Part shown: positions 1 to 21,839 of the stretch, piece after piece
Numbering within the stretch: the stretch's first letter is position 1
Layout of the letters: the number at the start of each line of letters is the position of its first letter
IMG/VR virus record: IMGVR_UViG_3300047323_000350
Coordinates: 1 to 21,839 of that record
Length of the DNA: 21,839 nt
From: a virus
Reading direction: 5' to 3' (one strand)
Notes under the pieces: model-generated
Seen by the model: only the letters and a program-made list of their open reading frames with translations
The model's database searches: none
Told to the model about the DNA's origin: nothing
Translations under genes and position numbers: made by a program

Positions 1-677
1 TTCAAAGCGGAAAGCCGGTGCTCGAACGGGTGTACAACATCATCCCCGTCACCGATGAAAAGCAGCTTACGGCCATCAATGGCTCGCTCACGAATGGCGG
101 CGGCCGTGGTCCTAGCGGCTCGATCAGCATTGAGGACGTGCTCTTTCACGCCAAGCTGCTGTCCGGCGCAATCGGTATCGATCTGTCGATGCTCGGCTTT
201 TCCGAACTGCTGTCGGGCGGCCTGGGCGATGGCGGCTTTTTCCGTACGTCCGCGCAGGCGGCCGAACGCTCGCGCCTCATCCGCGTTGGTCTGTCGGACT
301 TTTTCAATCACATCATCGACATTCACACGCACGCTAAGTACGGGATCATTTTCCCGGCCGATGAGCGGCCGTGGCATGTCAACTTCTACGGCACGATCAG
401 CGCGCTCGAAAGCGAGCGGCAGAAAACGAAAACAGAGGCCATGAATACGGGCCTGCTGCTCGTGCAGATGCTCCAACAGTTGCGCGACCTTGCCCTTGAT
501 CCGAAGGCGCTCACTGAAATCCTCGTGAAAATCGCGCTGCTCGATGAGGACCAAGTCAAGCTGATCGTTAAGGGCATGCCGAAAGAACCGCCCGACGACG
601 GCGGCGGTGGTGGCGGTAGATTCGGCGGCGGTGGCGGCGGCAAGCCCGGCGCGGACGACAACAGCGAGGTCGAATAA
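1..677 (+). CDS. Phage portal protein, C-terminal part (5' end outside the window)
   Basis: The reading frame is open to the left edge, so this is the C-terminal ~224 residues. The stretch with LSGGLGDGGFFRTSAQAA followed by a helix ending FFNHIIDIH is typical of the stem/crown part of myovirus portal proteins, which form the dodecameric DNA channel at the head vertex. The internal GTG at 18 is not needed as a start. The protein ends in two glycine-only tracts, GGGGGG and GGGGGG separated by RF, then an acidic tail; this looks disordered. The stop overlaps the next ATG (TAATG at 675-679), so the two genes are translationally coupled. Identification rests on motif recognition, not alignment; a head-tail structural role is well supported by context. 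Confidence 0.8.
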   Translation, partial: QSGKPVLERVYNIIPVTDEKQLTAINGSLTNGGGRGPSGSISIEDVLFHAKLLSGAIGIDLSMLGFSELLSGGLGDGGFFRTSAQAAERSRLIRVGLSDFFNHIIDIHTHAKYGIIFPADERPWHVNFYGTISALESERQKTKTEAMNTGLLLVQMLQQLRDLALDPKALTEILVKIALLDEDQVKLIVKGMPKEPPDDGGGGGGRFGGGGGGKPGADDNSEVE

Positions 678-1582
678 TGTCGATTTTTGACGCGGTCGCG
701 CGCGACCTTGGCGGCGGCTCGAACTCGTCGCGCTTTGACGATATTACCCAACGTCCCGGTTCCGGCATTGGCAGCGGCGGCGCTGGCGGCCTGCTCGGCA
801 ACGCCAGCATTGGCGGCCTGTCGCTCGTGGGCGCGGGCACGTCGTTGCTCAAGAATGCCGTCGGCAAGCTCGCACCGGCCGCCGCAGGCCCGCTCTCGAA
901 AGCGCTGCGCGGTGACTTCATCGGCGCGGGGCTTGAAGCGTTCGGCGAAACGGGCATCGGCAAAAAGATCAACAACGCGCTCACGAGCCCCTTTGCGTCA
1001 GACCTTCTGTTTGAGGCGACGGCCAACCCTCTGCTCGGCGGCATCACGCCGTTCGAGGCGCGCCAGATCATTCAGGAAGTGCAGAGCACGAACTACGCGA
1101 AAAAGAACCTCTTTTATGTCGAGATTCTTGACTTTTATCCCGGCAGCGGCACGGCGGGCAAGAGTTCCGGCCTGTTCAACCTGTTCTCAACGAGCGTGTC
1201 ATTCGGGCCGTGCACGGCTGAAGGCGAGGCCGTCAACATCGGGTCCGCGCAGATGGACAACCTGCATGGCAGCGGGCGCACGGAACTCCGTATTACCACG
1301 CTCGATGACGCCTACGGCTCAATCCAGCGCTGGTTTGAAACCCGCTTCGATGGCATGGCACACAACGATGGCACGTTCGGCGTACCCGCTGACTACCTCG
1401 TGCAGATCCGCCTGTTGCAGGCGGCTGTCAATGACACGGTGATGCAGCGCTTTGGCGGCCTGCAACGCAAATGGGTGATGCGGCCCGGCACGCTCGAAAC
1501 GGAAATGAACCGTGGCGAGGACGGCTTGCAGGAAATCCAGTTGTCGTTCACGCAGTTCGATACCTTCATGTACAACCCCTGA
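677..1582 (+). CDS. Tail tube-like or baseplate structural protein
   Basis: A 301-residue protein with a GAGGT ribosome site 5 bases before the ATG. Residues 1-130 are rich in Gly/Ala and low in complexity. The C-terminal ~165 residues look like the two-sheet tube fold of contractile tails: the strand-rich segment NLFSTSVSFGPCTAEGEAV, the alpha segment DDAYGSIQRWFETRFDG, and the ending LSFTQFDTFMYNP, which is common in T4 gp19/gp54-like proteins. The likely role is a tube-initiator or baseplate protein joining tube and hub. It sits between the portal and the tape-measure-like gene and ends 2 bases before that gene's ATG. The fold assignment is an inference; structure prediction against T4 gp54, gp48 and gp19 would decide it. 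Confidence 0.6.
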   Translation: MSIFDAVARDLGGGSNSSRFDDITQRPGSGIGSGGAGGLLGNASIGGLSLVGAGTSLLKNAVGKLAPAAAGPLSKALRGDFIGAGLEAFGETGIGKKINNALTSPFASDLLFEATANPLLGGITPFEARQIIQEVQSTNYAKKNLFYVEILDFYPGSGTAGKSSGLFNLFSTSVSFGPCTAEGEAVNIGSAQMDNLHGSGRTELRITTLDDAYGSIQRWFETRFDGMAHNDGTFGVPADYLVQIRLLQAAVNDTVMQRFGGLQRKWVMRPGTLETEMNRGEDGLQEIQLSFTQFDTFMYNP

Positions 1583-1584
1583 CG

Positions 1585-4008
1585 ATGAAAAGCGACTCGA
1601 AAGGCTTTCTGATCGCGGACGCGCCGATTGATGCGCTCGCTTCCGGCATTGATGCCGTGCACTCCGACACGAGCGCGATTCTCGCGCTGCTCAAATCGGG
1701 CTCTCGCGCCTCGTTGATGCAGCAACAACGCGTATCGAGCCCGCGCGCGATGCCTGCCGCTGCCGCCGCCGCTTCTGGTGCTGCCGGTGCGGCGATGACG
1801 TCGGCCGTGCGCTCTGCCCTCGCGAGCGCTCGCGCGCGTGACCCTCGCGGCCGGTTCCTGCCCGGCGCGCCTGGCATCACTGGCGTTCCAAGCGAACTGA
1901 CTAGCGTCGCCAAGGCCGTCGACTCGATGACGCGGCAGCAGGCAACGGAGCGCGCCTTGCAGCGGCGCGCGGACGCAGCGGCGACAGCGCGCGGCGATCA
2001 GAAGCGCGACGCGGGCGGGCGTTTCGTCGGCAAGGGTGGCAGTGGCGGCGGCCGTAGTCGCGGCGATGGCGACGGGTTCGGTCTGCTCGCGCGCCTGAAG
2101 TCGCTCGCCGGACTCACGCCTAAACTGGGTATGCCGGACCTTGGCGATTTCGACAAGGTGGACCCGACGGTAGAGGCCGCGAAAGAGGTGCACAAGCTCG
2201 TAGGCGGCCCGATGGCGAGCGTTGGCAAACTCACCAAGGCGGGCGTCTCTCGTGCCTTTGGCGGCGGTGCCAACACGGCCGTATCGTGGTATCGAAAGAT
2301 TTTCGGCGTGCTCAAGTCGAGCTATGAACAGCAGGGCGAGTTCGGGCTCGTGCAGACGCGCACGCTGAAGGAAATCGACAACAAGGCAGGCGGCGAGCAT
2401 GGCGGCGGTGGCGGCGGCATGCTGTCGGGCCTGCTCGGCGGTGCGCGCGGCATGCTCGGCAAGGGCGGCGGCCTGCTCAGTTCGCTGCTCGGCGGCGCTC
2501 TCAATATCGGCAAATTCGGATTGAAGCGCCTGCCGCTGCTCGGCGCACTGTTCGCGGGCGGCTCTGCCCTCGCGTCGATTTTCGGCGGCGATGACCCGAA
2601 CAAGACGAAAGACCAAAACCGCGAGGACCGTTTCAAGGGCGCGGGTTCCGGTATCGGCGCACTGGTCGGCGGCGCGGTCGGCATGTTGGGCGGCCCGGTC
2701 GGCGCGATGATTGGCGGTGTCGTCGGCGACAAGCTCGGCGAGATTGTCGGCGGATGGCTCGCGACTGTGGACTGGTCGAAAGTCGCGGCGCAGATCACGG
2801 ACGCATGGGACGCGACAACGGGTTTCTTCAAAGACTCGTGGAAGGCCGTCACCGACAAGCTCGACGCCTTCACAAAGAGCGTCAGCGACGGCTGGAATGC
2901 GATCATCGGCGGGGCAAAGGCGTTCCTGAAAAGCAAATTCGGCATCGACGTCGATGCTTTGATGGGCAAGGCGAAGGAAGTGATTGCGCCCGCCGTCGAC
3001 GCGGCGAAGAAAGCCGCCGCCCCTGTTGTCGACGCCGCAAAGAAGGGTGTCGACGCTGCTAAGGACGCCGGTTCGGCCGTCATCGACTACGGCAAAGATC
3101 GCGTCGAAAAGATGGCCGCGCCGATCCAGACGGCGGCGGGCAACGCGCTCGACTGGGGTAAAGGTCTGTTCGGCAAGGGTTCGAAGGGCAACAAGCTCGC
3201 GCTCATGTCGGCGGCCGACAAGGCGGGCATTTCCGACCCGAAAGAACGCGCGATGTTCATGGCGCAGATGGACACCGAAAGCGGCGGGTTCCGCAGTCTT
3301 GAGGAAAATCTCAACTACAAACCGAAAACGCTGCGCAAGGTGTTCGGCAAGTATTTCAAGACGGATGACGAAGCCAAGGCGGCGGCAGCGGGCGGGCCTG
3401 AGGCCATCGCCAACAAGGTGTACGGCGGTCGCATGGGTAACACCGAGGCGGGCGACGGCTACAAGTATCGCGGGCGCGGCTTTGTCCAGTTGACGGGCAA
3501 GGCCAATTACGAGGCGGCAGGCAAGGCGCTCGGCATCGACCTCGTGAATAACCCGGACCTTGCGGCCGTCCCGGCTATCGCGGCACAGATCGCGACGTGG
3601 TACTGGCAGAGCAAAGGCGGGCTCGCGGATGCCGCGCGCGCCGGTGACGTTGCAGCCGCAACGAAGAAAATCAACGGCGGCCTCAACGGGTTCGACGTGC
3701 GCAAAGAGAAGTACGACACCTACCTTGCACAAGGCACGGCGACACCCGCGCTCGGCATCGGTACGGCTGTCGCGCAGGCCGCGCCGCCCGTCGTCACGGC
3801 CGCCGTCGGCGCGCCGCAACCGCCGTCTATCCCGTCGGCGGCGGTGCCTGTCACACCCGCCGCGCCCGCCGCGCAGCAGGCCAGCATTCCCGTTCCCGTC
3901 AACAGCGACAAGCCGCTTGAGGTGCGCGTTGCCGATGATCGCGCCGTCGGGCAGGACTTGCAGAATCGACGGCTCGCGCAGATCGCAACGGGCGGCGTGT
4001 CCGGTTAA
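1585..4008 (+). CDS. Tape-measure-like virion protein with C-terminal GH19 muralytic domain
   Basis: An 807-residue protein. The frame is open upstream, but the ATG at 1585, two bases after the previous stop, is the natural start. The N-terminal third is Ala/Gly/Arg-rich. Residues ~314-333 and ~353-395 are hydrophobic Gly-rich segments, as in tape-measure proteins, followed by amphipathic Lys/Ala helices (~480-530). Residues ~540-720 form a GH19 chitinase-like lysozyme domain: DTESGGF with candidate acid E565, ENLNY with E574 nine residues later, then YKYRGRGFVQLTGKANYEA. A Pro/Ala-rich tail follows. The likely job is to span the tail tube and cut host peptidoglycan during DNA entry. It is short for a tape measure, so a baseplate-associated lysozyme is the main alternative. 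A second GH19 protein is encoded at 15334-15969. Confidence 0.72.
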   Translation: MKSDSKGFLIADAPIDALASGIDAVHSDTSAILALLKSGSRASLMQQQRVSSPRAMPAAAAAASGAAGAAMTSAVRSALASARARDPRGRFLPGAPGITGVPSELTSVAKAVDSMTRQQATERALQRRADAAATARGDQKRDAGGRFVGKGGSGGGRSRGDGDGFGLLARLKSLAGLTPKLGMPDLGDFDKVDPTVEAAKEVHKLVGGPMASVGKLTKAGVSRAFGGGANTAVSWYRKIFGVLKSSYEQQGEFGLVQTRTLKEIDNKAGGEHGGGGGGMLSGLLGGARGMLGKGGGLLSSLLGGALNIGKFGLKRLPLLGALFAGGSALASIFGGDDPNKTKDQNREDRFKGAGSGIGALVGGAVGMLGGPVGAMIGGVVGDKLGEIVGGWLATVDWSKVAAQITDAWDATTGFFKDSWKAVTDKLDAFTKSVSDGWNAIIGGAKAFLKSKFGIDVDALMGKAKEVIAPAVDAAKKAAAPVVDAAKKGVDAAKDAGSAVIDYGKDRVEKMAAPIQTAAGNALDWGKGLFGKGSKGNKLALMSAADKAGISDPKERAMFMAQMDTESGGFRSLEENLNYKPKTLRKVFGKYFKTDDEAKAAAAGGPEAIANKVYGGRMGNTEAGDGYKYRGRGFVQLTGKANYEAAGKALGIDLVNNPDLAAVPAIAAQIATWYWQSKGGLADAARAGDVAAATKKINGGLNGFDVRKEKYDTYLAQGTATPALGIGTAVAQAAPPVVTAAVGAPQPPSIPSAAVPVTPAAPAAQQASIPVPVNSDKPLEVRVADDRAVGQDLQNRRLAQIATGGVSG

Positions 4009-4013
4009 CGCGA

Positions 4014-4030
4014 CACCGGCACTAGGAAAA
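4014..4030 (+). promoter_or_regulatory. Candidate phage promoter element TAGGAAAA (copy 1)
   Basis: The intergenic sequence ACCGGCACTAGGAAAA lies 51 bases upstream of the ATG at 4081. The same word TAGGAAAA, with similar flanking bases, recurs ahead of the tail tube and capsid genes. No good sigma-70 -35/-10 pair is visible here. A phage-specific or activator-dependent late promoter is an inference from recurrence and position. Confidence 0.4.
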
Positions 4031-4080
4031 TGTAAGGGCGCATGGCACACTCGCGCGAAATGCACAACGGGGGAATATCC

Positions 4081-4500
4081 ATGCGCTGCAAAAAACTGCT
4101 GGTCGGCCTGGCGCTCTCGCTCGCCGCTCTGCCCGCTTTCGCCGATCAGGCGAATCTCGACCGCGCCGTCAATGACGCGCTGGCAACGTACCGCAGCGGC
4201 GGTGAAAACGCGCTCGCGACCAAGGCGAACCTCTGCACGACGGGCGTCGATTTCAGCGGCTCCGTATCGAGCCCGGCGCGCGAGGTCGAATACTGCATGG
4301 CGCTCGAAGCGGCGGGCGTGGTGATGCTCCAGCACGATGGCAAGCTCGCCCAGTCGCAGTATTTTCAGCCGGTCGACGTGATGGTCCGCGCGAAAGCGAA
4401 TCTCGCGCGCGCGCATATCGTTGAACTGCCGGAACAAGACCCGGCCTATGTCGTGCCGCGCATGAAGTACGTGCGCGAGCAGGTTCTCAAGCGCATGTAA
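4081..4500 (+). CDS. Small exported (periplasmic) protein, possible moron
   Basis: A 139-residue protein with a clear Sec signal peptide: MRCKK, a Leu/Ala-rich core, and cleavage after AFA (residue 21). The ATG at 4081 is chosen because it begins the signal peptide and follows a GGGGGA ribosome site; the in-frame ATG at 4042 would bury the signal. The mature part is mostly helical with two cysteines (NLCTTG and EYCMAL) that could form a disulfide, and ends in basic residues. I do not recognise a family. The gene has its own upstream TAGGAAAA element and a Rho-independent terminator just downstream, and it interrupts the tail genes. That is the pattern of a moron that acts on the host envelope, for example in exclusion or fitness; the function is unproven. 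Confidence 0.75.
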   Translation: MRCKKLLVGLALSLAALPAFADQANLDRAVNDALATYRSGGENALATKANLCTTGVDFSGSVSSPAREVEYCMALEAAGVVMLQHDGKLAQSQYFQPVDVMVRAKANLARAHIVELPEQDPAYVVPRMKYVREQVLKRM

Positions 4501-4523
4501 GCCAGGCTGAAACGCCCTCACCA

Positions 4524-4547
4524 AGCCCGCCGCGAGCGGGCTTTTTT
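4524..4547 (+). terminator. Rho-independent terminator after the exported-protein gene
   Basis: The stem AGCCCGC/GCGGGCT has a CGCGA loop and is followed by a run of six T (4542-4547). It lies 24 bases after the stop at 4500 and closes the single-gene unit before the tail tube transcript. Confidence 0.88.
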
Positions 4548-4550
4548 GCG

Positions 4551-4568
4551 TCCGGTGATTTAGGAAAA
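4551..4568 (+). promoter_or_regulatory. Candidate phage promoter element TAGGAAAA (copy 2)
   Basis: The sequence TCCGGTGATTTAGGAAAA lies directly behind the terminator and 70 bases before the tail tube ATG. Copy 3 shares the T-CCG-GTGA-TTAGGAAAA framework. Its place between a terminator and a highly expressed structural gene argues for a transcription start near here. Confidence 0.45.
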
Positions 4569-4638
4569 GCCGCGCGTGTCAAGCCAGAAAGCGACCTGAA
4601 AATCAAGCTGCACTCCCACATTTTCAGGTGACACACAC

Positions 4639-5124
4639 ATGGTTAACACCGGCAATTACCTTAAAACGGTACTCGGCGCGGTTCAGGCGATGGGCAACAA
4701 GGCCATCAACAGCGATGGCATGTTTGTACCCGTCGGCTATGAGGACATGCGCCTGCTCTGCAAGCAGTTCCCGCAGCCGGTCCTTTCCTCGAATGGCGAA
4801 ATCGCCGTGCCCGGCCCGCTCGGTACGGAAACGTTCCAGTCGCAACAGGCGAAGATCAATCACCAAGGCCAGATCGCGTTTTACGAAACCGAAGACGGTC
4901 ACGTCGAAAATTTCATCACGTCGCTGCAAGCGAACGGCGGCAAGTTCGACGCGAATATCTATCACGGCACGATGGAGAAGTTCAAGCGCGGCTGGCGCAT
5001 CACGGACTGTTTCATTCAGTTCGAGGACGTCGACCGCGACTGGGAAAACCGCTCGCAGGTAATCCTTCTGAGCGGCACGATCTTTTTCACCTACACCGGC
5101 GACAAGATCGTAGGGAACATCTGA
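4639..5124 (+). CDS. Tail tube protein
   Basis: A 161-residue protein, the usual length for contractile tail tube monomers. It would polymerise into the inner tube, through which DNA passes, inside the sheath. The N-terminus (MVNTGNYLKTVLGAVQ), the strand pattern FIQFEDVDRDWENRSQ and the final segment ILLSGTIFFTYTGDKI fit a gp19/Hcp-type tube fold. The ATG at 4639 has AGGTG 9 bases upstream. A long leader (4569-4638) separates it from the TAGGAAAA element. Most myoviruses place the tube gene directly after the sheath gene; here the sheath lies about 5 kb downstream. The tube call rests on length, strand pattern and context. Confidence 0.75.
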   Translation: MVNTGNYLKTVLGAVQAMGNKAINSDGMFVPVGYEDMRLLCKQFPQPVLSSNGEIAVPGPLGTETFQSQQAKINHQGQIAFYETEDGHVENFITSLQANGGKFDANIYHGTMEKFKRGWRITDCFIQFEDVDRDWENRSQVILLSGTIFFTYTGDKIVGNI

Positions 5125-5126
5125 TC

Positions 5127-5624
5127 GTGAAGCTCGCCGAACTCGCGAAAGACGTCTACTGGTCGTATGGCATCGTGCTCGATGACGATGCCTACAATCA
5201 GCAGGCCGTCAACGCTGCGCGCGTCTATCTCGGCTACGCGCACATCGCGAGTGTTGACCCGGTCGTAATGGTCGATCCGCCGCCGCCGTGCCAGTCGCCC
5301 GATGATGCTGCCGCGCAGGTCGTATGGGGCTACAACGGCACGATTTACGACGCGCCGCCGCGCCCCGCGCCGGTGCCATCGTACCCCGCGCCTACGTCGC
5401 CGCTCTCGCCAGAATCGGAAATCACCGATGGCGAATGGTTCGTGATCCGCCCGCTATTCCTGCTCTACGTCGAGCGTGAAAACGCGCGCGCGCTCGAAGC
5501 ATCGCGCCAGCTTGGTGTCGAGGTATACGGGCGCACGGTCGATCAGGTCGAGGCCGACATTCGCACCTACGAAACGCAGGACTTGACCCGCCTCGCGTTC
5601 GCTCAAACCGTCGAAGTTGTGTGA
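5127..5624 (+). CDS. Structural-module protein of unknown function
   Basis: A 165-residue protein starting with GTG two bases after the tube stop. The N-terminal helix (residues 1-40) is followed by a Pro-rich linker (PPPPC and a run of PxP repeats, ~50-95) and a helical C-terminal half with DGEWFVIRPLFLLYVEREN. No family is recognised. The helical bundle with a Pro-rich hinge, and its place between tube and hub genes, would suit a head-completion, neck or tail-terminator protein, but this is only context. The stop overlaps the next ATG (TGATG), indicating coupling. Confidence 0.7.
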   Translation: MKLAELAKDVYWSYGIVLDDDAYNQQAVNAARVYLGYAHIASVDPVVMVDPPPPCQSPDDAAAQVVWGYNGTIYDAPPRPAPVPSYPAPTSPLSPESEITDGEWFVIRPLFLLYVERENARALEASRQLGVEVYGRTVDQVEADIRTYETQDLTRLAFAQTVEVV

Positions 5625-5854
5625 TGCAAAAAACCGCTACTCCCCTGCTCTCTGCCGCTGAAATCACGGCCATCACCGAATCTGCGCGCGCGAACCGTGC
5701 GCGGCTCGACGCGTGCACCTTGCACGTTTTCACGCCGACCGGGCCGGTCAAGGCGTTGCGCCAGCACTATGTGTGCGCGAACTGCGCGGGCGAGGTCGAT
5801 AGCGCGGCCTATCGCTGGTACACGCAGGGTCGCGAGCACGAGGCGCGCGCGTGA
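5624..5854 (+). CDS. Small cysteine-containing protein of unknown function
   Basis: A 76-residue protein. The ATG at 5624 overlaps the previous stop; a GTG at 5621 would add one residue. It carries a CANC motif (a CxxC pair near residue 51) plus one more cysteine upstream, so a small metal site is possible but incomplete. Both ends overlap neighbouring genes, which supports real translation. No family is recognised. It may be a small tail or baseplate assembly factor. Confidence 0.65.
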   Translation: MQKTATPLLSAAEITAITESARANRARLDACTLHVFTPTGPVKALRQHYVCANCAGEVDSAAYRWYTQGREHEARA

Positions 5855-6729
5855 TTGAAGTCGCCAACATGCGCGGCGACATGATCCTGTCGGCCGTGCT
5901 GCGCTCTGACCTCGCGCCTATCCCGTACACGTTCGAGGCGCAGGTGCGCGTCACGCAGGACACGGCCGCTACGTTCAGGGACAACGCCGTCATTACGGTC
6001 AATTCGACCTCGTTTCGCATCATCCATACGGAACCGGTGCAGAACGTCGGCGGCGGCCCGCAAGGCAAAGAGCCGATCAACGCAGTGTCGATCACGGCCT
6101 ATCCCGATGACATTGCCGACGTCGCGCGCCCGCGTTCGTCGGCCGTGATTTTCGAGAACACGAGTCTCGCCGCGATCTACCGCGCGTGCGGCGCGAATGT
6201 CCCCATTAAGGGTGACCTGCCGGTGAGCGCGTTCGCCTGCCTCATCGGCAACATTCCGACATTCGGCCTTTCCCGAGTGCTGCAAGAGGAATCGGCCGTC
6301 GTGATGTGGCGCAAGGGGACGCTTCAGTCGATGGCACTGCGCGACCTCGTGGCGCAGGTGCCCGTCGATGCGGTTGACGGCGCGGAATCAGAGGGCGTGC
6401 AAAGCGAGTTCATCGTTGCCGATGAGGTGCCCGTCTATTACTCCATCGGGGCTGACGGCTCGTTTGTTTCTGGACCGCGCAAGAACGCCTGGCAACGTTC
6501 GGAATATACGCCGCGCAAGAGCGAGCGCGCCCTCAACGCGATGGGCCGCGTGCTCGTGCGGCGCAAGGTCATCACCGGCAAGGTGCGCCCCACTATTCGC
6601 GCCGGTGACGTCGTCACGGTGCGCGGTACGCCCCTTGTGGTGATGACCGTCGCGCAGGTGATGAAAAACGGGACGGGCGGCGACGCCCAACAACAGTACA
6701 CCCGCGTATGGCTTGGGGGGCTTTCATGA
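5851..6729 (+). CDS. Baseplate hub-like protein (gpD/gp27-type candidate)
   Basis: A 292-residue protein starting with GTG inside the previous stop (GTGA). It is strand-rich: FEAQVRVTQDTAATFRDNA near the N-terminus resembles the first tube-like domain of hub proteins, and the C-terminal ~60 residues (GKVRPTIRAGDVVTVRGTP) look like the OB/beta domain seen in gpD and gp27 proteins. The gene lies directly before the spike gene, the usual gpD-gpV or gp27-gp5 order. Hubs form the trimer that joins the tail tube to the spike. The family is not proven by a signature motif, so the call rests on beta pattern and neighbour order. Confidence 0.68.
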   Translation: MIEVANMRGDMILSAVLRSDLAPIPYTFEAQVRVTQDTAATFRDNAVITVNSTSFRIIHTEPVQNVGGGPQGKEPINAVSITAYPDDIADVARPRSSAVIFENTSLAAIYRACGANVPIKGDLPVSAFACLIGNIPTFGLSRVLQEESAVVMWRKGTLQSMALRDLVAQVPVDAVDGAESEGVQSEFIVADEVPVYYSIGADGSFVSGPRKNAWQRSEYTPRKSERALNAMGRVLVRRKVITGKVRPTIRAGDVVTVRGTPLVVMTVAQVMKNGTGGDAQQQYTRVWLGGLS

Positions 6730-7337: not shown

Positions 7338-7344
7338 GGCAACC

Positions 7345-7833: not shown

Positions 7834-7859
7834 GAGGCTCGCCCCGGCTGGTTTTGACG

Positions 7860-7895: not shown

Positions 7896-7927
7896 TGAAT
7901 TTTCGCTCTGACAATGAAAACTCGATC

Positions 7928-14468: not shown

Positions 14469-14498
14469 TTCCCCAGTCAACCGATAAGGCGACGCACG

Positions 14499-14930: not shown

Positions 14931-15334
14931 AACGACTGTTCTACGCGCTGCTGCTGCTCTTTTGGTCGGCTGCGGCCGTAGCTGCTCAGGTGACGTTCGC
15001 GCACGACCTGCGCGACATTCCGGCCGCTGCAATCGGTATCTCTGTTCTGCTCGCGATCATCGGCGGCTCGGCATACACCGCGCAGAAGATCGCAGACCCG
15101 GCGACCGTCGTCAAAAGCGTGGCGCTTGAAATCGTGAAAGACCTGTTGACGTCGATTGTCGTCGGGCTGTGCATTTTCTTTCTCGGCTCGTATTTCAACT
15201 GGCAATCCGTCGTGCAGGCCGGACTCATCACGCTCGGCGGCTATAGCGGCTCGCGCGTGCTCGAACCGGCCGTAAGCGGCTTCGTGGCATGGGTGAGCCG
15301 TATGAGCGGTACGACGCCTGGCGAGGGCACGTAA
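14909..15334 (+). CDS. Holin, LydA-like (holin superfamily III)
   Basis: A 141-residue inner-membrane protein preceded by AAGGA. It has membrane segments at residues ~8-25, ~37-55 and ~75-95 and a C-terminal helix with QAGLITLGGYSGSRVLE, a pattern found in LydA-family holins. It would form pores that release the endolysin at the end of the lytic cycle. It overlaps the upstream membrane-protein gene and its stop overlaps the endolysin ATG (TAATG), so the lysis genes are translated together. Confidence 0.8.
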   Translation: MPQSLQLKRLFYALLLLFWSAAAVAAQVTFAHDLRDIPAAAIGISVLLAIIGGSAYTAQKIADPATVVKSVALEIVKDLLTSIVVGLCIFFLGSYFNWQSVVQAGLITLGGYSGSRVLEPAVSGFVAWVSRMSGTTPGEGT

Positions 15335-15969: not shown

Positions 15970-16538
15970 GCACGGTTACTGAGGTGCATGTCCAGCGCGA
16001 GACGCTGGAATTTGAGGTCAACATTCCCGGTCACGAGCCGCGTGTTACCACGCCGCTGTTTGCGCATTCGCGCAAGCTGCTCATTGAGCGCGAGGGCGGC
16101 CGGTGTTGGGTATCGGGCGCGACGGCTGAGGAAAGCGGCCATCCGCTCGAAGCGCATCACCACCCTATCGAGCGCTCGATGGCGAACATGATCGACTGGG
16201 AGCGCTTCGCGGCCGACTGCAAGCGTGGCGCGTGGGGTCCGCACGCGCAGGCATTCGACTGGGACAAGTTTTTCGAGGGCGCAGAGGTCACCGTGATCCC
16301 CGCGCCGCACCCGCTTGCCGATGAGGTGCGCGTGCTCACGCCGCGCGACCCGTATCTGTTCGTGGATGACATGACGGCGAATGGCCTGCTGCTCTCGAAG
16401 CCCTTCCATACCGGCAAGGGCTCCGGCATTCACGACATGCCGCACCCGGTTTGGGTCGCGCTCAGGTATGCCCGCGAGGGTTACCAGTTCTCCAGCACAA
16501 CGACTATCCACCACTTCGAAGGCGAAGGGCACGACTGA
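15966..16538 (+). CDS. HNH-like protein of unknown function
   Basis: A 190-residue protein coupled by ATGA to the endolysin. It begins with a basic segment, HSRKLLIEREGGRC, then LEAHHHPIE, a central aromatic/acidic region and finally NGLLLSKPFHTGKGSGIHDM. The H-rich centre, later N and later HxxxxxxH are in the order of an HNH nuclease, but the usual pair of Cys-x-x-Cys motifs is missing (only one Cys near residue 47). It may be a divergent endonuclease or a metal-binding phage protein. It sits between the endolysin and the lipoprotein, an odd place for a nuclease. Confidence 0.55.
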   Translation: MSTVTEVHVQRETLEFEVNIPGHEPRVTTPLFAHSRKLLIEREGGRCWVSGATAEESGHPLEAHHHPIERSMANMIDWERFAADCKRGAWGPHAQAFDWDKFFEGAEVTVIPAPHPLADEVRVLTPRDPYLFVDDMTANGLLLSKPFHTGKGSGIHDMPHPVWVALRYAREGYQFSSTTTIHHFEGEGHD

Positions 16539-16580
16539 GGCCCGGCGCGAACTGTTTTTCAACCACCTGTAGGGCATGCA

Positions 16581-17102
16581 ATGCAAAGAAGACTTCTAAG
16601 AGCCTGTGTCATCGCCGGTGCCGCGCTCATGATGGCTGTCGCTTCCGGCTGTGCGACGTACAACACGAGCGGTCCTGTGACGTCTGTCGCATCCGGCAAC
16701 GGGCAGGCTGTCGCCTCGCAAACGCCGACGGCGCAGACGGCCGCGAAAAAGCTCACCGCGCTCGCGGTGACGGTCGACAAGGACTGCACGGTAGGCCAGC
16801 CGTTCCTCGCGTCGCTACTGACGCTGCAAACGGACCCGGCCGCGATTGACCTCGTGAAAAAGGCCCAGGACAAGGCGGGCGAGGTATGCACCGTGGTCGC
16901 CGCCATCGCGCACCCGGTGAGTGGTGCGACCGTGCCGACACTCGACCTCGCAACCGTGAAAGCGTTCGCCGATTCGCAGGTTCCCGTCCTGCTCGACCTC
17001 GTGAAAAAATCCGGCATGGATGACAAGGCGAAGACTGCGGCGGGCCTCGCGATCACCGGCATGCAGGCTGCCCTGCTCATTGCGGTTGTCAACGCGCAAT
17101 GA
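16581..17102 (+). CDS. Small lipoprotein, possible outer-membrane spanin or exclusion factor
   Basis: A 173-residue protein with a type II signal peptide (RRLLRACVIAGAALMMAVAS) and a lipobox ending GC at residue 24. TAGGG lies 7 bases before the ATG. The mature part is Thr/Ala-rich, then helical, and ends with a hydrophobic stretch (AALLIAVVN). In the lysis cassette a lipoprotein is often the outer-membrane half of a spanin; however, this one is not Pro-rich like many spanins and has no nested inner-membrane partner. Superinfection exclusion is a second option. Confidence 0.65.
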   Translation: MQRRLLRACVIAGAALMMAVASGCATYNTSGPVTSVASGNGQAVASQTPTAQTAAKKLTALAVTVDKDCTVGQPFLASLLTLQTDPAAIDLVKKAQDKAGEVCTVVAAIAHPVSGATVPTLDLATVKAFADSQVPVLLDLVKKSGMDDKAKTAAGLAITGMQAALLIAVVNAQ

Positions 17103-17584
17103 GCAAATTCCTGTCGCCGCTGCGCGTCGAGCCCGCCACCTCAAAAGACGATGACAACTGGCGGCTGCTCGATTGCCTCGTGTATCAGTCTGACGTCGCC
17201 CGGCGCACGATCACCGTGCCCGCTGGCTTCGTGACCAACTTCGCGAGTGTGCCGCGTATTCCCGTCGTGTATGAACTGGCGGGCGACACGTCGAGCGCGG
17301 CGGCGACGGTGCATGACTACCTCTATTCGACGCATATCGTTTCGCGAGACGTCGCGGACGCGGTATTGCGTGAGGCGTCGGCCGCAACGGCGGTGCCGTG
17401 GTGGAGACGTCAGCTTATGTGGGCGGGCGTTCGTGCGTTCGGCTGGTCGCATTGGGGTACGGCCGCAACGGATAAAAGCTCGTCGGCCGACAAGGCGGCG
17501 GTGCAGCCGGTGAAGCTGCCCGACGGCACGGCCGCGTGCGCCGCGTTGATGGCATCGATAACCTACGCCAGCGCTCACCACTAA
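17099..17584 (+). CDS. DUF1353-family phage protein
   Basis: A 161-residue protein coupled to the lipoprotein gene by ATGA. Residues ~39-100 match the DUF1353 pattern: VPAGFVTNFASVPRIP, then AATVHDYLYS and a basic RDVADAVLREA segment, with a conserved His-Asp pair. This family is common near phage lysis and tail genes; its function is unknown. About 60 residues after the domain, from ~105, are low in complexity with a Trp-rich stretch and appear to be a local extension. Confidence 0.8.
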   Translation: MSKFLSPLRVEPATSKDDDNWRLLDCLVYQSDVARRTITVPAGFVTNFASVPRIPVVYELAGDTSSAAATVHDYLYSTHIVSRDVADAVLREASAATAVPWWRRQLMWAGVRAFGWSHWGTAATDKSSSADKAAVQPVKLPDGTAACAALMASITYASAHH

Positions 17585-17590
17585 AGGCAC

Positions 17591-17613
17591 GGCCGCCGCG
17601 CAATGCGGCGGCC
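17591..17613. terminator. Strong hairpin between convergent transcripts
   Basis: The 9-bp perfect stem GGCCGCCGC/GCGGCGGCC has a GCAAT loop and lies in the 33 bases between the rightward phage stop (17584) and the leftward rep stop (17618). TCTCTT follows on the + strand; on the - strand it is followed by GTGCCTTT. It is probably a bidirectional terminator insulating the phage and plasmid modules. Confidence 0.75.
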
Positions 17614-17617
17614 TCTC

Positions 17618-18865
17618 TTATGTCTCCCGGCTCGCGAGGACTTCAGCGGCTCGCTTGCCGCGAAAACCTGTCCAGTTGGCCTTTTCCTTGATGTTGGCGA
17701 ACTCGTGTTTCTCGCCGATGCGCGTTTGAGCGTGCGTCTGCTCGATGAACGCGACGGTAATCGCCTCTTTCTCATCGTCTGTCAGCTTGCCCCATGCTCC
17801 GCGCGTCGTGGCGACCTGCCTGTCTGCCTTGACCTCATCGGGCGACGGCAGCGCTGGCGCTTTGACGGCTCTCCTTGTCTTGCGCTCAGGCAGATCCAGC
17901 GGCGAATCGCTCTCGAACACGCTCATGAAGTAGCCCGCAGGCGAGCCGGTGATTTTCCCCGCCGCCTCGCGCTCCAGCGTGACCTTGATCGCGAGCGCGG
18001 CGCGCGGCAGGTTCTTCGAAAGAATGCTCTTTATGCTGGACTCACCGAAGCCGATAGCGGTCAACTGCTCGCGCAGCATGGCCTCTTTCGGGTCCGCCTC
18101 GAACGGCAGTTCCGCCTGGGCCTTTTCCGTCACGCCGAATTGCAGTTCGGTTACCGTGCGGCCGACCTTTTTAAACCGCAGTTCGACGTCGATATCCGAA
18201 ACGGCGTTGACTTCCTTGATGGCCTTCTGCAAGACGAAGTTGGAAAAATGCCGGTACTGCTCGTACATTTTTCCCGTCGCGCCTAGCAGTTCGCGCCACG
18301 TATCGACGGGCGCATACCGGGTTTGTCCGATGGTCCGATAGCGCAGGCAGTTCTCATACAGCGCGAGCGCATAACCGCTCTTGAAGCGTCGTTGCATCTT
18401 AATGTCGATGGCGGCGAACACTTCCGGGCGCGCAAGGCGGTCGGCGAGCCATTCGATATACGCGTATGTCACCCGCCCATTGCTCACGCCGATAGACGAC
18501 ACGAGCGGCGTTTTTTTCCAATCCTCTTTGCCGTCCGCGAACATGTTCAGCGTGACGATGTTGTGCATGATGTTTTCGGCGGCCTGCGCGAGTTTCTTGT
18601 GATCGTTGCTCGCCTCCCATCCGATTGCCTCGCACAGAAACTTCACCGACATGGTGTGCTCACGCTTCGTGAGCAGGTCATCGTATGCGTGCAATAAAAG
18701 CACATTCACGATTTTGCGCTCAACGAGAGACAGACTGCCGCTGACGTGGATTGTCGCGACGTGCTTGCGCAACTCGCGTTCGTCCAGCTTGGCGAGTTCT
18801 GCCGACCGGGCCTCTGCCGGTAACACCTCAATGCCGACCTTGTCGGCCGCTTTCACTCTCCCCAT
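17618..18865 (-). CDS. Plasmid replication initiator, Rep_3 (RepB) family
   Basis: A 415-residue protein. The start is taken as the ATG whose complement lies at 18863-18865, since GGGGAGAGGT precedes it; a TTG at 18883 would add six residues. Residues ~35-230 form the paired winged-helix domains of Rep_3 initiators: SLSLVERKIVNVLLLHAYDD, then YALALYENCLRYRTIGQTR and the DTWRELLGATGKMYEQYRHF segment. The ~170-residue C-terminal extension is basic and Pro-rich. The protein binds the iterons directly upstream and opens the origin. Iterons lie upstream of the gene, and an inverted half-site spans its promoter, so autoregulation by Rep dimers is likely. This is the decisive sign of a plasmid state. 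Confidence 0.9.
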   Translation of the reverse strand: MGRVKAADKVGIEVLPAEARSAELAKLDERELRKHVATIHVSGSLSLVERKIVNVLLLHAYDDLLTKREHTMSVKFLCEAIGWEASNDHKKLAQAAENIMHNIVTLNMFADGKEDWKKTPLVSSIGVSNGRVTYAYIEWLADRLARPEVFAAIDIKMQRRFKSGYALALYENCLRYRTIGQTRYAPVDTWRELLGATGKMYEQYRHFSNFVLQKAIKEVNAVSDIDVELRFKKVGRTVTELQFGVTEKAQAELPFEADPKEAMLREQLTAIGFGESSIKSILSKNLPRAALAIKVTLEREAAGKITGSPAGYFMSVFESDSPLDLPERKTRRAVKAPALPSPDEVKADRQVATTRGAWGKLTDDEKEAITVAFIEQTHAQTRIGEKHEFANIKEKANWTGFRGKRAAEVLASRET

Positions 18866-18891
18866 GACCTCTCCCCGATGCAATGGGGCGA

Positions 18892-18920
18892 AGTGTAGTA
18901 GGTTAACAGCATACCGGCAA
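18892..18920 (-). promoter_or_regulatory. Candidate rep promoter (- strand)
   Basis: On the - strand, TTGCCG and TACACT are separated by exactly 17 bases, with the start about 20-25 bases before the rep ATG. The par operon promoter candidate has the same -10 and spacing. The -10 hexamer differs from consensus at two bases, so this is a moderate sigma-70 match. Confidence 0.5.
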
Positions 18921-18939
18921 GGTGATATGTATGCCTTAT
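18906..18939. promoter_or_regulatory. Candidate Rep operator: inverted iteron half-sites at the rep promoter
   Basis: The - strand TATGCTGT (18906-18913) and + strand TATGCCTTAT (18930-18939) are iteron tails facing each other, flanking the -35 region. Iteron plasmids commonly use such inverted half-sites for Rep-dimer repression of rep. Here the role is inferred from position and sequence. Confidence 0.45.
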
Positions 18940-18943
18940 GCTA

Positions 18944-19085
18944 TCCCGCAAACTATGCTCTATGCGATTCATCCCGCAAACTATGCTCTATTGGGGGGCC
19001 TCATCCCGCAAACTATGCTCTATGGCCTCGCGCCGCGCCGGGCATCCCGAAAACTATGCTCTTTGTCCCGCAGACTATGCTCAAT
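18944..19085 (+). repeat. Origin iterons, cluster 1 (five direct repeats)
   Basis: Five 20-bp direct repeats with consensus TCCCGCAAACTATGCTCTAT start at 18944, 18972, 19004, 19045 and 19066. The fourth has TCCCGA for TCCCGC, and the fifth has CAGAC for CAAAC and ends TCAAT. They are Rep-binding sites of the plasmid origin. Start-to-start spacing is 28, 32, 41 and 21 bases. Confidence 0.9.
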
Positions 19086-19170
19086 ATTGGCTTACCTATA
19101 CCCAATAGACGCATAAATATCGTTATAAATCATCATGTTACGGCGGTTTACGAGCCTGTTTTCATTGCCA
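19086..19170. other. AT-rich spacer, possible origin unwinding element
   Basis: An 85-base stretch, much richer in A+T than the surrounding genes (for example CATAAATATCGTTATAAAT), lies between the two iteron clusters. AT-rich DNA flanking iterons is where strands usually open. I see no clear DnaA box with the TTATNCACA consensus. Confidence 0.55.
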
Positions 19171-19264
19171 TCCCGCAGACTATGCCTTATCCCGCAGACT
19201 ATGCTCTATCCCTCGCGAACCGTCCCGCAGACTATGCTATGACGTCCCGCAAACTATGCTGAAT
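19171..19264 (+). repeat. Origin iterons, cluster 2 (four direct repeats)
   Basis: Four repeats of the same 20-bp element start at 19171, 19190, 19223 and 19245. Three have CAGAC, and the last has CAAAC and ends TGAAT. The first is altered to TATGCCTTAT, the same as the half-site near the rep promoter, and shares its last T with the second. A decayed copy (TGCCCGCAAAC) follows near 19266. Confidence 0.88.
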
Positions 19265-19332
19265 CTGCCCGCAAACCCGCGCCGGATAAGGCTTTAATGA
19301 GCCTAAAGGTTTTAAAGATGTTGTTTACTTAA

Positions 19333-19357
19333 AAACAACAACAACCCCTGTTGTTGT
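19333..19357 (-). terminator. Possible second terminator or hairpin (- strand)
   Basis: ACAACAAC/GTTGTTGT (19338-19357) is an 8-bp stem with a CCCT loop. Read on the - strand it is followed by TGTTTTT, so it may back up the terminator at 19392-19427 and keep par transcripts out of the origin. Confidence 0.55.
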
Positions 19358-19391
19358 CTCTTTCAGAGACTTCCCCCAACCCAAACCCCAA

Positions 19392-19427
19392 AAAGCAAAA
19401 AGCCCGACCTCTGGCGAGTGTCGGGCT
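19392..19427 (-). terminator. Rho-independent terminator of the par operon (- strand)
   Basis: AGCCCGAC (19401-19408) and GTCGGGCT (19420-19427) form an 8-bp stem. On the - strand it is followed by TTTTGCTTTT. It lies 20 bases after the last par-operon stop. Confidence 0.85.
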
Positions 19428-19447
19428 CGGCGATAGACATATCTATC

Positions 19448-19852
19448 TTAGTCGCGGTCGGGCGTGTCGTATTGGGCGATCAGGCGATCAACGATTTCCT
19501 CAATGCCCTGCATGGCGATTTTCTGCATCGAGGTGTTCGGCATGTGCTCCGCGAGCCATTTCAGCTTTGCGTGCAGTTCCTCTGCCGGGCGCAGATTGAA
19601 CGGCTTCGTGACCTTGGGATGAGCGTCCTCCCACGGCCTGCGAGGCTTCGCGCGCAGATCGAGCCTGCCCTGCCCTGCCGTCGCCTCAGGTGTGGCGCGA
19701 TGCATGCGTTGTGCAGCCGCAACCGGCGCGACCTCAAATGGCAGCACGCGCTCAGGCAGCGGCGCGTGATCGGCGGGCATCGGCTCGCCGTCGGGAACAG
19801 GGACCAAGTCCTCAGGCCGGAACTGAAAGCCGGGTTTGAGCGCGTTTCTCAT
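19448..19852 (-). CDS. Second small DNA-binding partition-type protein (paralogue of the upstream one)
   Basis: A 134-residue protein overlapping the upstream gene by four bases (ATGA). The N-terminal ~70 residues are Pro/Ala-rich and probably flexible. The C-terminal ~60 residues begin RPWEDAHPKVTKPFN and have EELHAKLKWLAEHMPN and S-Q-K spacing equal to those of the gene upstream (PW-AHP-V-F-EE-H-KL-WL-E-M-S-QK). This is a small ribbon-helix-helix-like fold: a beta strand (VTKPFNL) and two helices. Such proteins pair with short ParA ATPases to bind centromere DNA and repress the operon. Its different N-terminus suggests that the copies have separate jobs. Confidence 0.68.
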   Translation of the reverse strand: MRNALKPGFQFRPEDLVPVPDGEPMPADHAPLPERVLPFEVAPVAAAQRMHRATPEATAGQGRLDLRAKPRRPWEDAHPKVTKPFNLRPAEELHAKLKWLAEHMPNTSMQKIAMQGIEEIVDRLIAQYDTPDRD

Positions 19853-20313
19853 GATTTCAGAATCTCCTTGATGCGCTTGTCGAGCAGCGCATCGACGGCC
19901 TCATGCACGAGTTTCTGGATTGACTGGCGGCCGGTCATATTCTCAGTGAGCCAGGTCAGTTTCATGTGCTGTTCTTCACTGAACTGGGTCGAAAAGTTGA
20001 CCTTGACGCGCGGGTGAGCGTTCGCCCACGGCAAACCGGCGTCCCTGCCCTTTTTGCCCTTGCTGGCGGGTTTCTGCGCGGCGGCCGGTGCCTCGGCATC
20101 CGCGACAGCCTCGGCGGGCTCGCTGGCGGCCTCTACAGCGGGCTGCGCGTCGCTCGCCGGTGCCTCGCCCTCAACGTCGGGCGCGGGCGGCTCTGCGGGC
20201 GCGTCGTGCGCTTCCGGGTTCCCCTTGTCCAGAAACGCGGCCATGCGTGCCTGTTCGGCTGCAAGGCGCGCGGCGGCCTGCCGCTCCTGCTTTGTCTGTT
20301 GTTGTTCAGCCAC
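19849..20313 (-). CDS. Small DNA-binding partition-type protein (ParG/ParB-like)
   Basis: A 154-residue protein starting with GTG, overlapping the ParA stop by eight bases. The first ~30 residues are Gln/Lys/Ala-rich helix, followed by ~60 residues of Ala/Pro/Glu-rich linker. Residues ~95-150 are the likely ribbon-helix-helix domain, with the strand RVKVNFSTQF and helices EEQHMKLTWLTENM and IQKLVHEAVDALLD. ParA-Ib systems usually encode one such centromere-binding partner; here there are two in tandem. A flexible N-terminal tail is also typical of ParG-type proteins, where it stimulates the ATPase. Confidence 0.7.
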   Translation of the reverse strand: MAEQQQTKQERQAAARLAAEQARMAAFLDKGNPEAHDAPAEPPAPDVEGEAPASDAQPAVEAASEPAEAVADAEAPAAAQKPASKGKKGRDAGLPWANAHPRVKVNFSTQFSEEQHMKLTWLTENMTGRQSIQKLVHEAVDALLDKRIKEILKS

Positions 20314-21013
20314 GGTAAATCTCCACTAGCAGTTGTTCCATTTCCGCGAGGGCGGCCTTGACGCCCTTGTCTCGTGGCCGTTGCTCAATGATGGCCTCGC
20401 CCGTTTTCGCCCATCCGGCATACTGCGCGCGGTAGTTGACGACGGTTTCGAGCGTACGGAACTCAATGAATTTCGCCGAATCCTTGTAAAACACCTCGAC
20501 GTCGCTCGATTTCGCGTTCGTGCTGGCCTGCGTGGGAAAAAGCATCGCGTCGAGCGTAGGATTCATCGTGCGCGCCTCGCCGACCAGTAGGTTGATCGCA
20601 TCGAGCCGGGCAATATCAGCCGGATTTGGCCTGCAAGGCGTCACCACGCGCGAGGCAACGAGCAGTGCGGCGCGGATTTCGGTCGCGCCGTGGCCCTCGC
20701 CGCCGACGTCGACAATGATTTCGTCATAGTCGGCCGCCTTTGCCTTCAGTTGCATGTGCAGGTCGCGCCCGCGCAAGGTGATGACCTCGATAAACGGCAG
20801 GTCGGTGCGCACCTTGGGATCATCCGGGCCTCGCGCAAGCGTCTCGTCGGCGCGGTCGTTGCGCGCCATGCTGAACGTGCGAAGCGACTGGCCGGTGTCG
20901 GCGTCCACCATCAATACGCGCTTGCCCGCGTAGGACAGCATGACGCCCAGGTTGACGGCGGTTGTTGTCTTCGCAACACCGCCCTTTGTGTGTGCAACGA
21001 CCGTAATCGACAT
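20306..21013 (-). CDS. parA: ParA-family partition ATPase (short, type Ib-like)
   Basis: A 235-residue protein. The start is the ATG at 21011-21013; AAAGGG lies upstream, and translation upstream of it does not look like the family. It has the deviant Walker A motif KGGVAKTTT (residues ~10-18), a Walker A'-type MVDADTGQS region, and the Walker B-like IIVDVGGEG. No N-terminal helix-turn-helix is present, so it belongs with the short ParA proteins. It segregates the plasmid copies by ATP-driven movement over the nucleoid, working with the two DNA-binding proteins encoded downstream. It is the first gene of the operon. Confidence 0.9.
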   Translation of the reverse strand: MSITVVAHTKGGVAKTTTAVNLGVMLSYAGKRVLMVDADTGQSLRTFSMARNDRADETLARGPDDPKVRTDLPFIEVITLRGRDLHMQLKAKAADYDEIIVDVGGEGHGATEIRAALLVASRVVTPCRPNPADIARLDAINLLVGEARTMNPTLDAMLFPTQASTNAKSSDVEVFYKDSAKFIEFRTLETVVNYRAQYAGWAKTGEAIIEQRPRDKGVKAALAEMEQLLVEIYRG

Positions 21014-21045
21014 GAGGTGACCCTTTTCGGCTTGATATGTCGCGC

Positions 21046-21074
21046 AGTGTATTGATTTATCTATATCACTACAA
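21046..21074 (-). promoter_or_regulatory. Candidate par operon promoter (- strand)
   Basis: On the - strand, TTGTAG and TACACT are separated by 17 bases. The predicted start is about 25-30 bases before the parA ATG. Hexamer sequence and spacing match the rep promoter candidate. A palindrome copy lies about 75 bases upstream. Confidence 0.5.
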
Positions 21075-21136
21075 GCCGGATAGCCCCGTTCCATATGGTT
21101 TGTGGGGCGAAGGGAACACGCCACATACGGTCGATG

Positions 21137-21175
21137 CAAGTGTGACTGATACCAACTGGTATCACGCCCGCGCGA
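21137..21175. repeat. Palindrome-containing repeat, copy 1
   Basis: This 39-base direct repeat (33 of 39 identical to copy 2 at 21509-21547) has at its centre GATACCA-AC-TGGTATC, a perfect 7-bp-arm palindrome (21148-21163). It lies upstream of the par promoter, in a place suited to an operator or centromere. Confidence 0.7.
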
Positions 21176-21508
21176 TAAGGGGTTTCGGACGTTTTTCTCA
21201 TTTCCTCTGTCACACTCAGAGCGACACGACACAAAATCACGGCCTAACGGAAACGGATTTCCTCTTTTCCATTCAATTTGGGTGCTGCCTGCTCTTTTCT
21301 TGTTGCTTTCGGCCCGGTTAGATCAAGAAAAGACACACAAAGAGCGAATAAAACCTATCTTATGTGTTTCGACATGACTTATTTGGGTGAGAAGTGACCC
21401 TATGTGGTTATGACGGACAAAACTACACAGGAAACGAGTCGAACAAACCATAACAAGAAACAAAAGGCACGATTTCAACACCCCAAACAAGGACAAATAG
21501 AAAATGGT
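21176..21508. other. Non-coding AT-richer region upstream of the par operon
   Basis: No convincing gene is seen on either strand. The base make-up is AT-richer than the genes, and the repeated word ATTTCCTCT occurs at 21200 and 21257. A short frame from 21410 to 21592 lacks the codon bias of its neighbours and runs through a palindrome, so I do not call it. The region may be part of the partition site. Confidence 0.5.
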
Positions 21509-21547
21509 CCAGTGTGTCTAATACCAACTGGTATCAGTGCCGCGCGA
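21509..21547. repeat. Palindrome-containing repeat, copy 2
   Basis: The second copy of the 39-base direct repeat, 372 bases from copy 1. Its core ATACCA-AC-TGGTAT lies at 21521-21534, preceded by GTGTGTCTA and followed by CAGTGCCGCGCGA. The match beyond the palindrome shows that the flanks are conserved too. Confidence 0.7.
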
Positions 21548-21575
21548 ATGTATGAAAGGGTGGTGTCGAGAAACG

Positions 21576-21621
21576 GCATAACGTGTGTTTAATACCAGTT
21601 GGTATGGGTTACACGTTATGC
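21576..21621. repeat. Concentric 46-bp palindrome, copy 3
   Basis: ATACCA-GT-TGGTAT (21592-21605) is centred inside an outer perfect 11-bp inverted repeat, GCATAACGTGT (21576-21586) and ACACGTTATGC (21611-21621), with the same midpoint. The 5 bases between arms and core do not match. The GTGTG that precedes the core is shared with copies 1 and 2. Confidence 0.75.
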
Positions 21622-21651
21622 GTACAGGTGAGGCAATACGGGAAGGAGGCG

Positions 21652-21839
21652 TTAAGCCTTGATTTCAGGCGGGACGCGCTCACAGGAGAGACGGTGAGAG
21701 ACGGCCAGCAGGCCATTGGACGGGCGGGGTAGGGCGGCCGTTTTGCACGGGTCGGCAGGCGGCGGGTCGAGTCGGGCCTGCAATGCAAGCAGCGCAAGCG
21801 CACCGGTGATAGCGATCAGGTACGTCGGAATATGGCGGA
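21652..21839 (-). CDS. Small membrane-anchored protein, 5' end outside the window
   Basis: The frame is open from the right edge to a TAA at 21652-21654, giving 61 residues. It starts RHIPTYLIAITGALALLALQ, which reads as basic residues and one membrane helix, followed by a Pro-rich segment (DPPPADP) and two cysteines. The start and any signal lie beyond the edge. Small membrane or lipoprotein genes next to plasmid maintenance loci are often exclusion or mating-pore components, but no family is recognised here. The call is tentative; codon choice and the membrane segment favour this frame over the alternatives. Confidence 0.4.
   Translation of the reverse strand, partial: RHIPTYLIAITGALALLALQARLDPPPADPCKTAALPRPSNGLLAVSHRLSCERVPPEIKA

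Follow-up and report, generated by a model that had tools for sequence, protein, structure and literature searches.

The window analyzed here is the full virus record IMGVR_UViG_3300047323_000350, a stretch of 21,839 bases. It very probably makes up roughly one quarter of a temperate phage that has a contractile tail, belongs to the wider P1 lineage and exists as a low-copy circular plasmid in the prophage state; we are highly confident that it is part of a phage-plasmid. Virion and lysis, replication, and partition genes, the combination by which phage-plasmids are generally recognized, lie on one molecule. The sequence itself shows the virion and lysis genes, a replicon with iterons, a ParA operon, and a gene order collinear with relatives that reside on plasmids. 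The original prediction described virion and lysis genes running rightward into a hairpin, followed by a Rep_3 initiator, nine iterons and a ParA operon running leftward, and family matches and shuffled controls confirmed this layout. In the prophage, binding of Rep to the nine iterons would initiate replication and keep it in check, and ParA with two small partners would segregate the plasmid copies. Upon induction, the rightward late genes would make virions and lyse the cell. Between close relatives, the replicon and partition genes appear to be swapped while the virion block is retained.

Plasmid-borne relatives and the extent of the element

The closest relative was contig 24 of Paraburkholderia sp. 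C35 (NZ_QBUY01000024, also IMGVR_UViG_2900588628_000001 and here G001; 93,160 bases), hereafter C35. The window was collinear with this contig in four main blocks (window positions 6-13657, 13583-16564, 16725-20147 and 20885-21830) at 73-88% DNA identity. The first block falls on one end of the C35 contig and the second on the other end, and the two ends share an exact 77-base overlap. Because the window spans both contig ends and the 77 bases common to them, the C35 relative closes into a circle of about 93,083 bases. Compared with this relative of about 93 kilobases (kb), the window is thus a fragment amounting to 23%. The contractile-tail genes that had been predicted are present, but the proposal that they form a whole phage genome does not stand. 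Circularity was found in the C35 relative and not in the window record, which had no direct terminal repeat at the ends of its 21,839 bases and is incomplete. Two further records, G003 (98,469 bases, with a 105-base end overlap) and G002 (93,641 bases), and pBVIE05 of Burkholderia vietnamiensis G4 (CP000621), which is recorded as a finished circular plasmid of 88,096 bases, were the other near relatives compared.

We chose 26 window genes from the open reading frame (ORF) list, omitting a frame ending at 14468 and other short frames. By tblastn (E<=1e-3), C35 and G002 each contained all 26, G003 25, pBVIE05 24, Xanthomonas phage Rb1 12 and P1 8; matches that spanned 80% or more of the gene numbered 25, 25, 21, 18, 11 and 0, respectively. 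For small protein 1, the tblastn match in C35 was a paralogue, and the true homologue was identified separately. C35 resembled the window in its Rep (89% identical), capsid (88%) and equal iteron spacing, whereas its ParA was 64% identical and its portal and darB genes each contained an in-frame stop. The Rep and capsid of pBVIE05 were 68% and 66% identical, and six of its seven iteron gaps were equal to those of the window; however, relatives of the DUF1353 protein and the lipoprotein were not found in it, and it encodes a 215-amino-acid (aa) resolvase. A further relative of 94 kb, G404 (IMGVR_UViG_3300028024_000006), had a capsid 67% and a Rep 31% identical to those of the window. Pattern scans, which reach close relatives only, located the sheath at five loci in viral contigs and one in genome contigs, and the capsid and Rep at eight loci and one locus in viral contigs. 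A search of the phage collection with the window gave no DNA match and one sheath relative, in Rb1. The host is probably a Burkholderia-like or Paraburkholderia-like bacterium.

Several observations weigh against the phage-plasmid reading. The window lacks a terminase, a repressor and most of the portal; it is known from sequence alone, and its own molecule was not closed. G002 showed no end overlap, and the resolvase of pBVIE05 is a PF00239 match. The C35 portal gene (13023-14618) contains an in-frame TAG and its darB gene (17808-24635) an in-frame TAA. In a sample of 398 genomes from the family to which C35 belongs, six gave capsid matches at E<=1e-20, C35 included, and three of these six lay in chromosome-sized contigs of 4.1-6.2 megabases (Mb). 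Finally, Ideonella NZ_CP088082 carries a block of the same virion lineage within a 709-kb plasmid (562097-644879).

Given the two in-frame stops, the C35 relative may have lost function or its assembly may contain errors. They would also fit a decayed phage-plasmid that replicates as a plasmid and no longer forms virions, and loss of phage functions in P1-like elements is documented (PMC10879196). We consider such decay unlikely for the window. No broken gene was seen in it, with three quarters of the element lying outside this view; for 25 of its 26 genes, the alignments to C35 and to G002 each covered 80% of the gene or more, and its portal frame remains open up to the window start. Moreover, in G002 and G003 the portal and darB relatives each form one uninterrupted frame.

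The chromosome-sized contigs and the Ideonella block, which has an integrase gene on one side (562 kb) and an excisionase gene on the other (645 kb), could instead point to an integrated prophage that carries plasmid replication genes by chance. This account is highly improbable. Each Rep_3 relative whose ends we examined is a record of its own, 88-98 kb long: two have the end overlaps given above, one is a circular plasmid, and G002 has no overlap. In addition, the chromosomal relatives G174, G344 and G297 had no relative of the window Rep within the 100 kb taken around each. As predicted, no integrase was visible in the window: PF00589, the family of Cre-type tyrosine recombinases, had no match in this quarter of the element, nor in C35, G002, G003 or pBVIE05, and PF00239 had none in the window, C35, G002 or G003. 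An artificial joining of phage and plasmid contigs during assembly, which the original prediction had named as a possible refutation, can be dismissed because the joint recurs in independent assemblies, with late genes beside plasmid genes in C35, G002 and G003 and lysis genes beside Rep in pBVIE05. With this joint present in four relatives, and the nearest of them closing to a circle of about 93 kb, the phage-plasmid reading was upheld.

Virion genes and the relationship to P1

The rightward block, encoded on the plus strand, consists of P1-type contractile-tail and lysis genes supported by PHROG, Pfam, or P1/D6 profiles. It opens with the C-terminal part of the portal protein, cut by the window edge (3-677; PHROG 1497, 5.4e-66; P1 Prt profile, 1.7e-32). 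This is followed by a tail tube-like protein related to P1/D6 Tub (677-1582; phrog_1842 tail tube, 1.6e-9; D6 Tub, 2.2e-13) and a tape-measure or injection transglycosylase with a GH19 domain. The start of the latter is inferred (1585-4008), and its E-values (phrog_4067, 1.9e-131; PF00182, 3.1e-12) come from a longer reading, 1471-4008. Next are a tail tube protein related to P1 BplB (4639-5124; phrog_1120, 6.1e-42; P1 BplB, 2.2e-7), a phrog_1390 tail protein (5851-6729; 2.3e-44), a gpV-like baseplate spike related to P1 gp5 (6708-7337; Phage_base_V, 3.3e-5; P1 gp5, 7.8e-7) and an Hdf-like antirestriction/head protein (7345-7833; DarA_N, 1.1e-12; phrog_1620, 3.6e-41).

The major capsid protein (7979-9643) takes its name from a profile match to P1 gp23 (1.1e-24; D6, 1.4e-20), since its PHROG has no stated function; by tblastn it was 23% identical to that of P1 over 410 columns (2.2e-21). 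Downstream lie the tail sheath, a P1 gp22 relative (10142-11770; phrog_1036, 9.3e-125; P1 gp22, 9.9e-17), a P1 gp21 relative (11779-12519; D6 gp21, 2.7e-11; P1 gp21, 6.7e-7), a PmgG relative (12600-13439; phrog_1114, 3.5e-56; D6 PmgG, 1.4e-15) and a PmgB-like morphogenesis protein (13436-14239; phrog_6830, 3.7e-42; phrog_1854, 3e-8; D6 PmgB, 4.3e-5). The lysis genes encode a superfamily III holin related to P1 LydA (14909-15334; PF16083, 1.7e-8; P1 LydA, 3.2e-5) and a GH19 endolysin with an inferred start (15334-15969; phrog_181, 4.6e-75 in the longer reading 15289-15969), which scored 25.1 bits against PF00182, slightly under the 25.5-bit cut-off. Two GH19-like domains, in the tape measure and the endolysin, therefore stand within one late block. 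An HNH protein is also encoded on the plus strand of this block, and a DUF1353 gene is its last member (17099-17584; PF07087, 4.8e-24). Rfam gave no match in the window, and C35 had no tRNA.

We built profiles from the relatives of each window gene in C35, G002 and G003 and searched them against 74 listed genes of P1 (AF234172) and 31 of D6 (MF356679). Half of the window genes (13 of 26) matched P1, D6 or both at E<=0.01, and the other thirteen had no match. The original prediction had regarded the gene order of the virion module as unfamiliar and the replicon as a different type from that of known phage-plasmids, and neither view held. The capsid, sheath, gp21 and PmgG genes follow the same order in the window, in P1 (58773 down to 53975) and in D6; the portal, spike and Hdf genes sit elsewhere in P1. 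According to PMC9024508, the P1 capsid gene lies between the sheath gene and parS, unlike in other model phages, and PmgG is assigned to the baseplate-tube junction. The capsid-sheath neighbourhood of the window is that of P1. A Rep_3 initiator as a feature separating the window from P1 was likewise ruled out: P1 RepA matched PF01051 (Rep3_N, 25.7 bits against a cut-off of 22.4; Rep3_C slightly under its cut-off), and D6 orf42 also matched Rep_3.

P1 thus resembles the window in its contractile virion, the 23-22-21-pmgG order, a Rep_3 initiator with annotated iterons, and the Hdf/Dar genes. It differs, apart from the distance of its capsid, in a long ParA with HTH_54 and a large ParB, and in the annotated Cre/lox system and invertible tail-fibre segment. 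HTH_54 was not found in the window ParA at E<=0.1, and its partners are small, unlike the P1-type partition system. D6 shares the core block, a Rep_3 initiator and a short ParA related at 3.1e-26, but has another small partner gene and, as annotated, a Cre-like recombinase with a rox site. Since the ParA of D6, a member of subgroup P1_2, is short as well, the long HTH_54 ParA is not group-wide in the P1 group.

Outside the window region, C35 encodes a PacB relative (3.5e-82 to P1 PacB) together with relatives of P1 Prt (portal), Pro (protease), DarA, DarB, BplA, gp25 and HrdC. It also encodes a cI-like repressor with helix-turn-helix (HTH) and S24 domains (77992-78738). The repressor and the relatives of P1 proteins fit a temperate phage. 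The high-identity conserved set used for P1-group typing was not found by plain tblastn, given the capsid identity of 23% and the eight P1 matches, none of which reached 80% of gene length. The published typing (PMC12977533) gives both P1_1 and P1_2 for Enterobacteriaceae and includes many singletons. On the basis of the other partition system, the absence of a PF00589 match, and sequence distance, which are its departures from P1, we regard the element as P1-related and not as a member of the P1 group. P1-related phage-plasmids are thereby extended into Burkholderiales. As the prediction of a less-described group had anticipated, the branch is probably little described, whereas the kind itself is known; no description of the branch was found in the open-licence literature searched. 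That literature also yielded no paper under the names pBVIE05 and Xanthomonas phage Rb1; pBVIE05 may have been listed as a phage-plasmid before, and PMC13221032, which screened IMG/VR, may include some of these records already.

Replicon, partition operon and palindrome

A GC-rich hairpin (17591-17613; 10 pairs, 9 of them G-C) lies between the convergent DUF1353 and Rep genes; terminator-like sites as a class were not above chance there (7 found, against 5.5 +/- 2.6 in shuffles). The Rep_3 initiator is encoded on the minus strand (17618-18883; PF01051, Rep3_N, 2.8e-20; PF21205, Rep3_C, 3.9e-15). Beyond it, nine plus-strand copies of the iteron TCCCGCARACTATGCT (18944-19260) form a putative origin and copy-control region; at up to 2 mismatches, the mean in 100 shuffles was 0. 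The copies start at 18944, 18972, 19004, 19045, 19066, 19171, 19190, 19223 and 19245. C35 has nine iterons with identical gaps (28, 32, 41, 21, 105, 19, 33 and 22). At up to 3 mismatches, pBVIE05 has eight, with gaps of 36, 41, 21, 105, 19, 33 and 22, and two scattered single matches also occurred in each of C35 and pBVIE05. G003 has six copies of a related iteron, approximately CCCCCTAAACTATGCT, with gaps of 30, 116, 20, 33 and 22, and G002 has a different iteron, read by eye as roughly AGGTAACCnnnnCGGGT.

The identity of Rep to that of the window decreased from C35 and pBVIE05 to G003 (39%), G002 (37%) and G404. In G002, the capsid (81%), the holin (96%) and the DUF1353 protein (87%), the gene of which adjoins that of Rep, contrast with this Rep. 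Rep proteins of ordinary Burkholderiales plasmids were 39-41% identical to the window Rep, which is the level of those of G002 and G003. The ParA proteins of C35 and G002 were 95% identical, against the 64% between the window and C35. The simplest reading suggested by these comparisons is that replicon and partition genes have been exchanged while the adjoining virion block stayed constant; a less simple account would be that Rep and its iterons diverged faster. The window and G002, with near-alike virion blocks beside unlike Rep proteins and iterons, would offer a direct test of a change of incompatibility group in a phage.

The partition operon runs leftward. Its ParA (20306-21013, minus strand; 235 aa from the ATG) is short and lacks the HTH that P1 ParA has at its N-terminus. 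It matched AAA_31 at 3.1e-14 in a longer reading and NF041546 (ParA_partition) at 1.7e-31, below the cut-off of that model. The ORF list places the start at 21232, which probably lies too far upstream. PADLOC gave a single match, to ParA (9.6e-4), which we took as the shared ATPase fold. Two overlapping small genes on the minus strand lie downstream of parA. Small protein 1 (19849-20313; Antitox_RHH, 0.021, below cut-off) has a C-terminal domain resembling small protein 2, and a C-terminal motif common to both appeared in a four-row alignment. Small protein 2 (19448-19852; HicB, 0.013, below cut-off) is a probable ribbon-helix-helix centromere binder; its model has two C-terminal helices at low confidence, with a mean predicted local distance difference test (pLDDT) score of 58, too low for a fold search.

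Upstream of parA, the palindrome ATACCARYTGGTAT occurs in three copies (21149-21605; starts at 21149, 21521 and 21592; mean of 0 in 100 shuffles). G002 likewise has copies upstream of parA, and its sites are at 53326 (with one mismatch), 55882 and 55962. A scan of pBVIE05, G003, Rb1, P1 and pKF715C, a Pseudomonas plasmid described below, did not find the palindrome. C35 has four sites (82247, 85058, 85132 and 85511), three upstream of ParA and one upstream of an RdgC-FtsK-gamma fusion gene (82318-83496; L023:2318-3496; FtsK gamma Pfam, 2e-22). The fusion gene overlaps a gene (83493-84383) for a 296-aa ParB-like protein, which scored 18.5 bits against HTH_ParB (Pfam cut-off, 22.6). We rejected ATACCARYTGGTAT as the operator of the cI-like repressor because none of the four C35 sites lies at the repressor gene. 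The ParB-like protein consequently remains as a candidate only, and that it binds ATACCARYTGGTAT is conjecture; relatives of the protein in pBVIE05 and G003, where the site was not found, speak against this. We tentatively propose a layered form of prophage maintenance, which we regard as doubtful. A short ParA and two tandem ribbon-helix-helix partners would act together with a ParB/KorB-like protein, encoded outside the window and present in C35 and G002, that reads ATACCARYTGGTAT upstream of parA and of its own operon with the RdgC-FtsK-gamma fusion. Segregation, copy resolution and recombination would thereby be tied together on an exchangeable replicon cassette.

Lysogeny styles across the virion lineage

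One virion lineage carries several lysogeny styles, namely the Rep_3 plasmid, the RPA plasmid, the tyrosine integrase and the serine recombinase. We constructed a capsid and sheath tree of 16 rows with P1 and D6 set as the outgroup; the direction of change cannot be read from it. Leaving aside P1 and D6, the five elements with Rep_3 formed one clade (100/100), which joined (95/99) a clade of Rb1 and the integrated elements. The Pseudomonas plasmids fell outside both clades, with the order among them open. Rb1 (PQ569993) shares 12 of the 26 genes with the window (capsid 44% and sheath 46% identical), but has no Rep_3 match and instead encodes a serine recombinase of about 630 aa. G344 has a serine recombinase 52% identical to that of Rb1 and no terminase relative in the 100 kb taken. 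G174 encodes an integrase that shares 89% identity with the one adjoining the Ideonella block, and no integrase was identified in G297.

Among the plasmids, pKF715C (NZ_AP015032) is of the same virion lineage and has a ParA; unlike the window, it carries an RPA initiator (PF10134), a tyrosine recombinase and a mer transposon. Of four Pseudomonas plasmids, only pKF715C and PaSM1 had RPA, whereas pPRS and PfDR133 had neither an RPA nor a Rep_3 match. P1-like phage-plasmids are reported to convert to integrated prophages and to plain plasmids (PMC10879196); the lysogeny switch as such is therefore already known.

Four minor observations concern these relatives. Genes from a diversity-generating retroelement, for reverse transcriptase and Avd, lie next to the Ideonella integrase gene. 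In pKF715C, a Tn3-family transposase accompanies a mercury resistance operon (L038, 33857-43779). The pPRS08-11306 record (CP018759) has equal gene lengths and order at 5582-18393 and 99824-112635, a near-end repeat that looks like an unresolved end overlap of the assembly. A distant capsid relative (34%; G027:C12:8622-10268), with one in-frame TGA, occurs in a 2.2-Mb genome.

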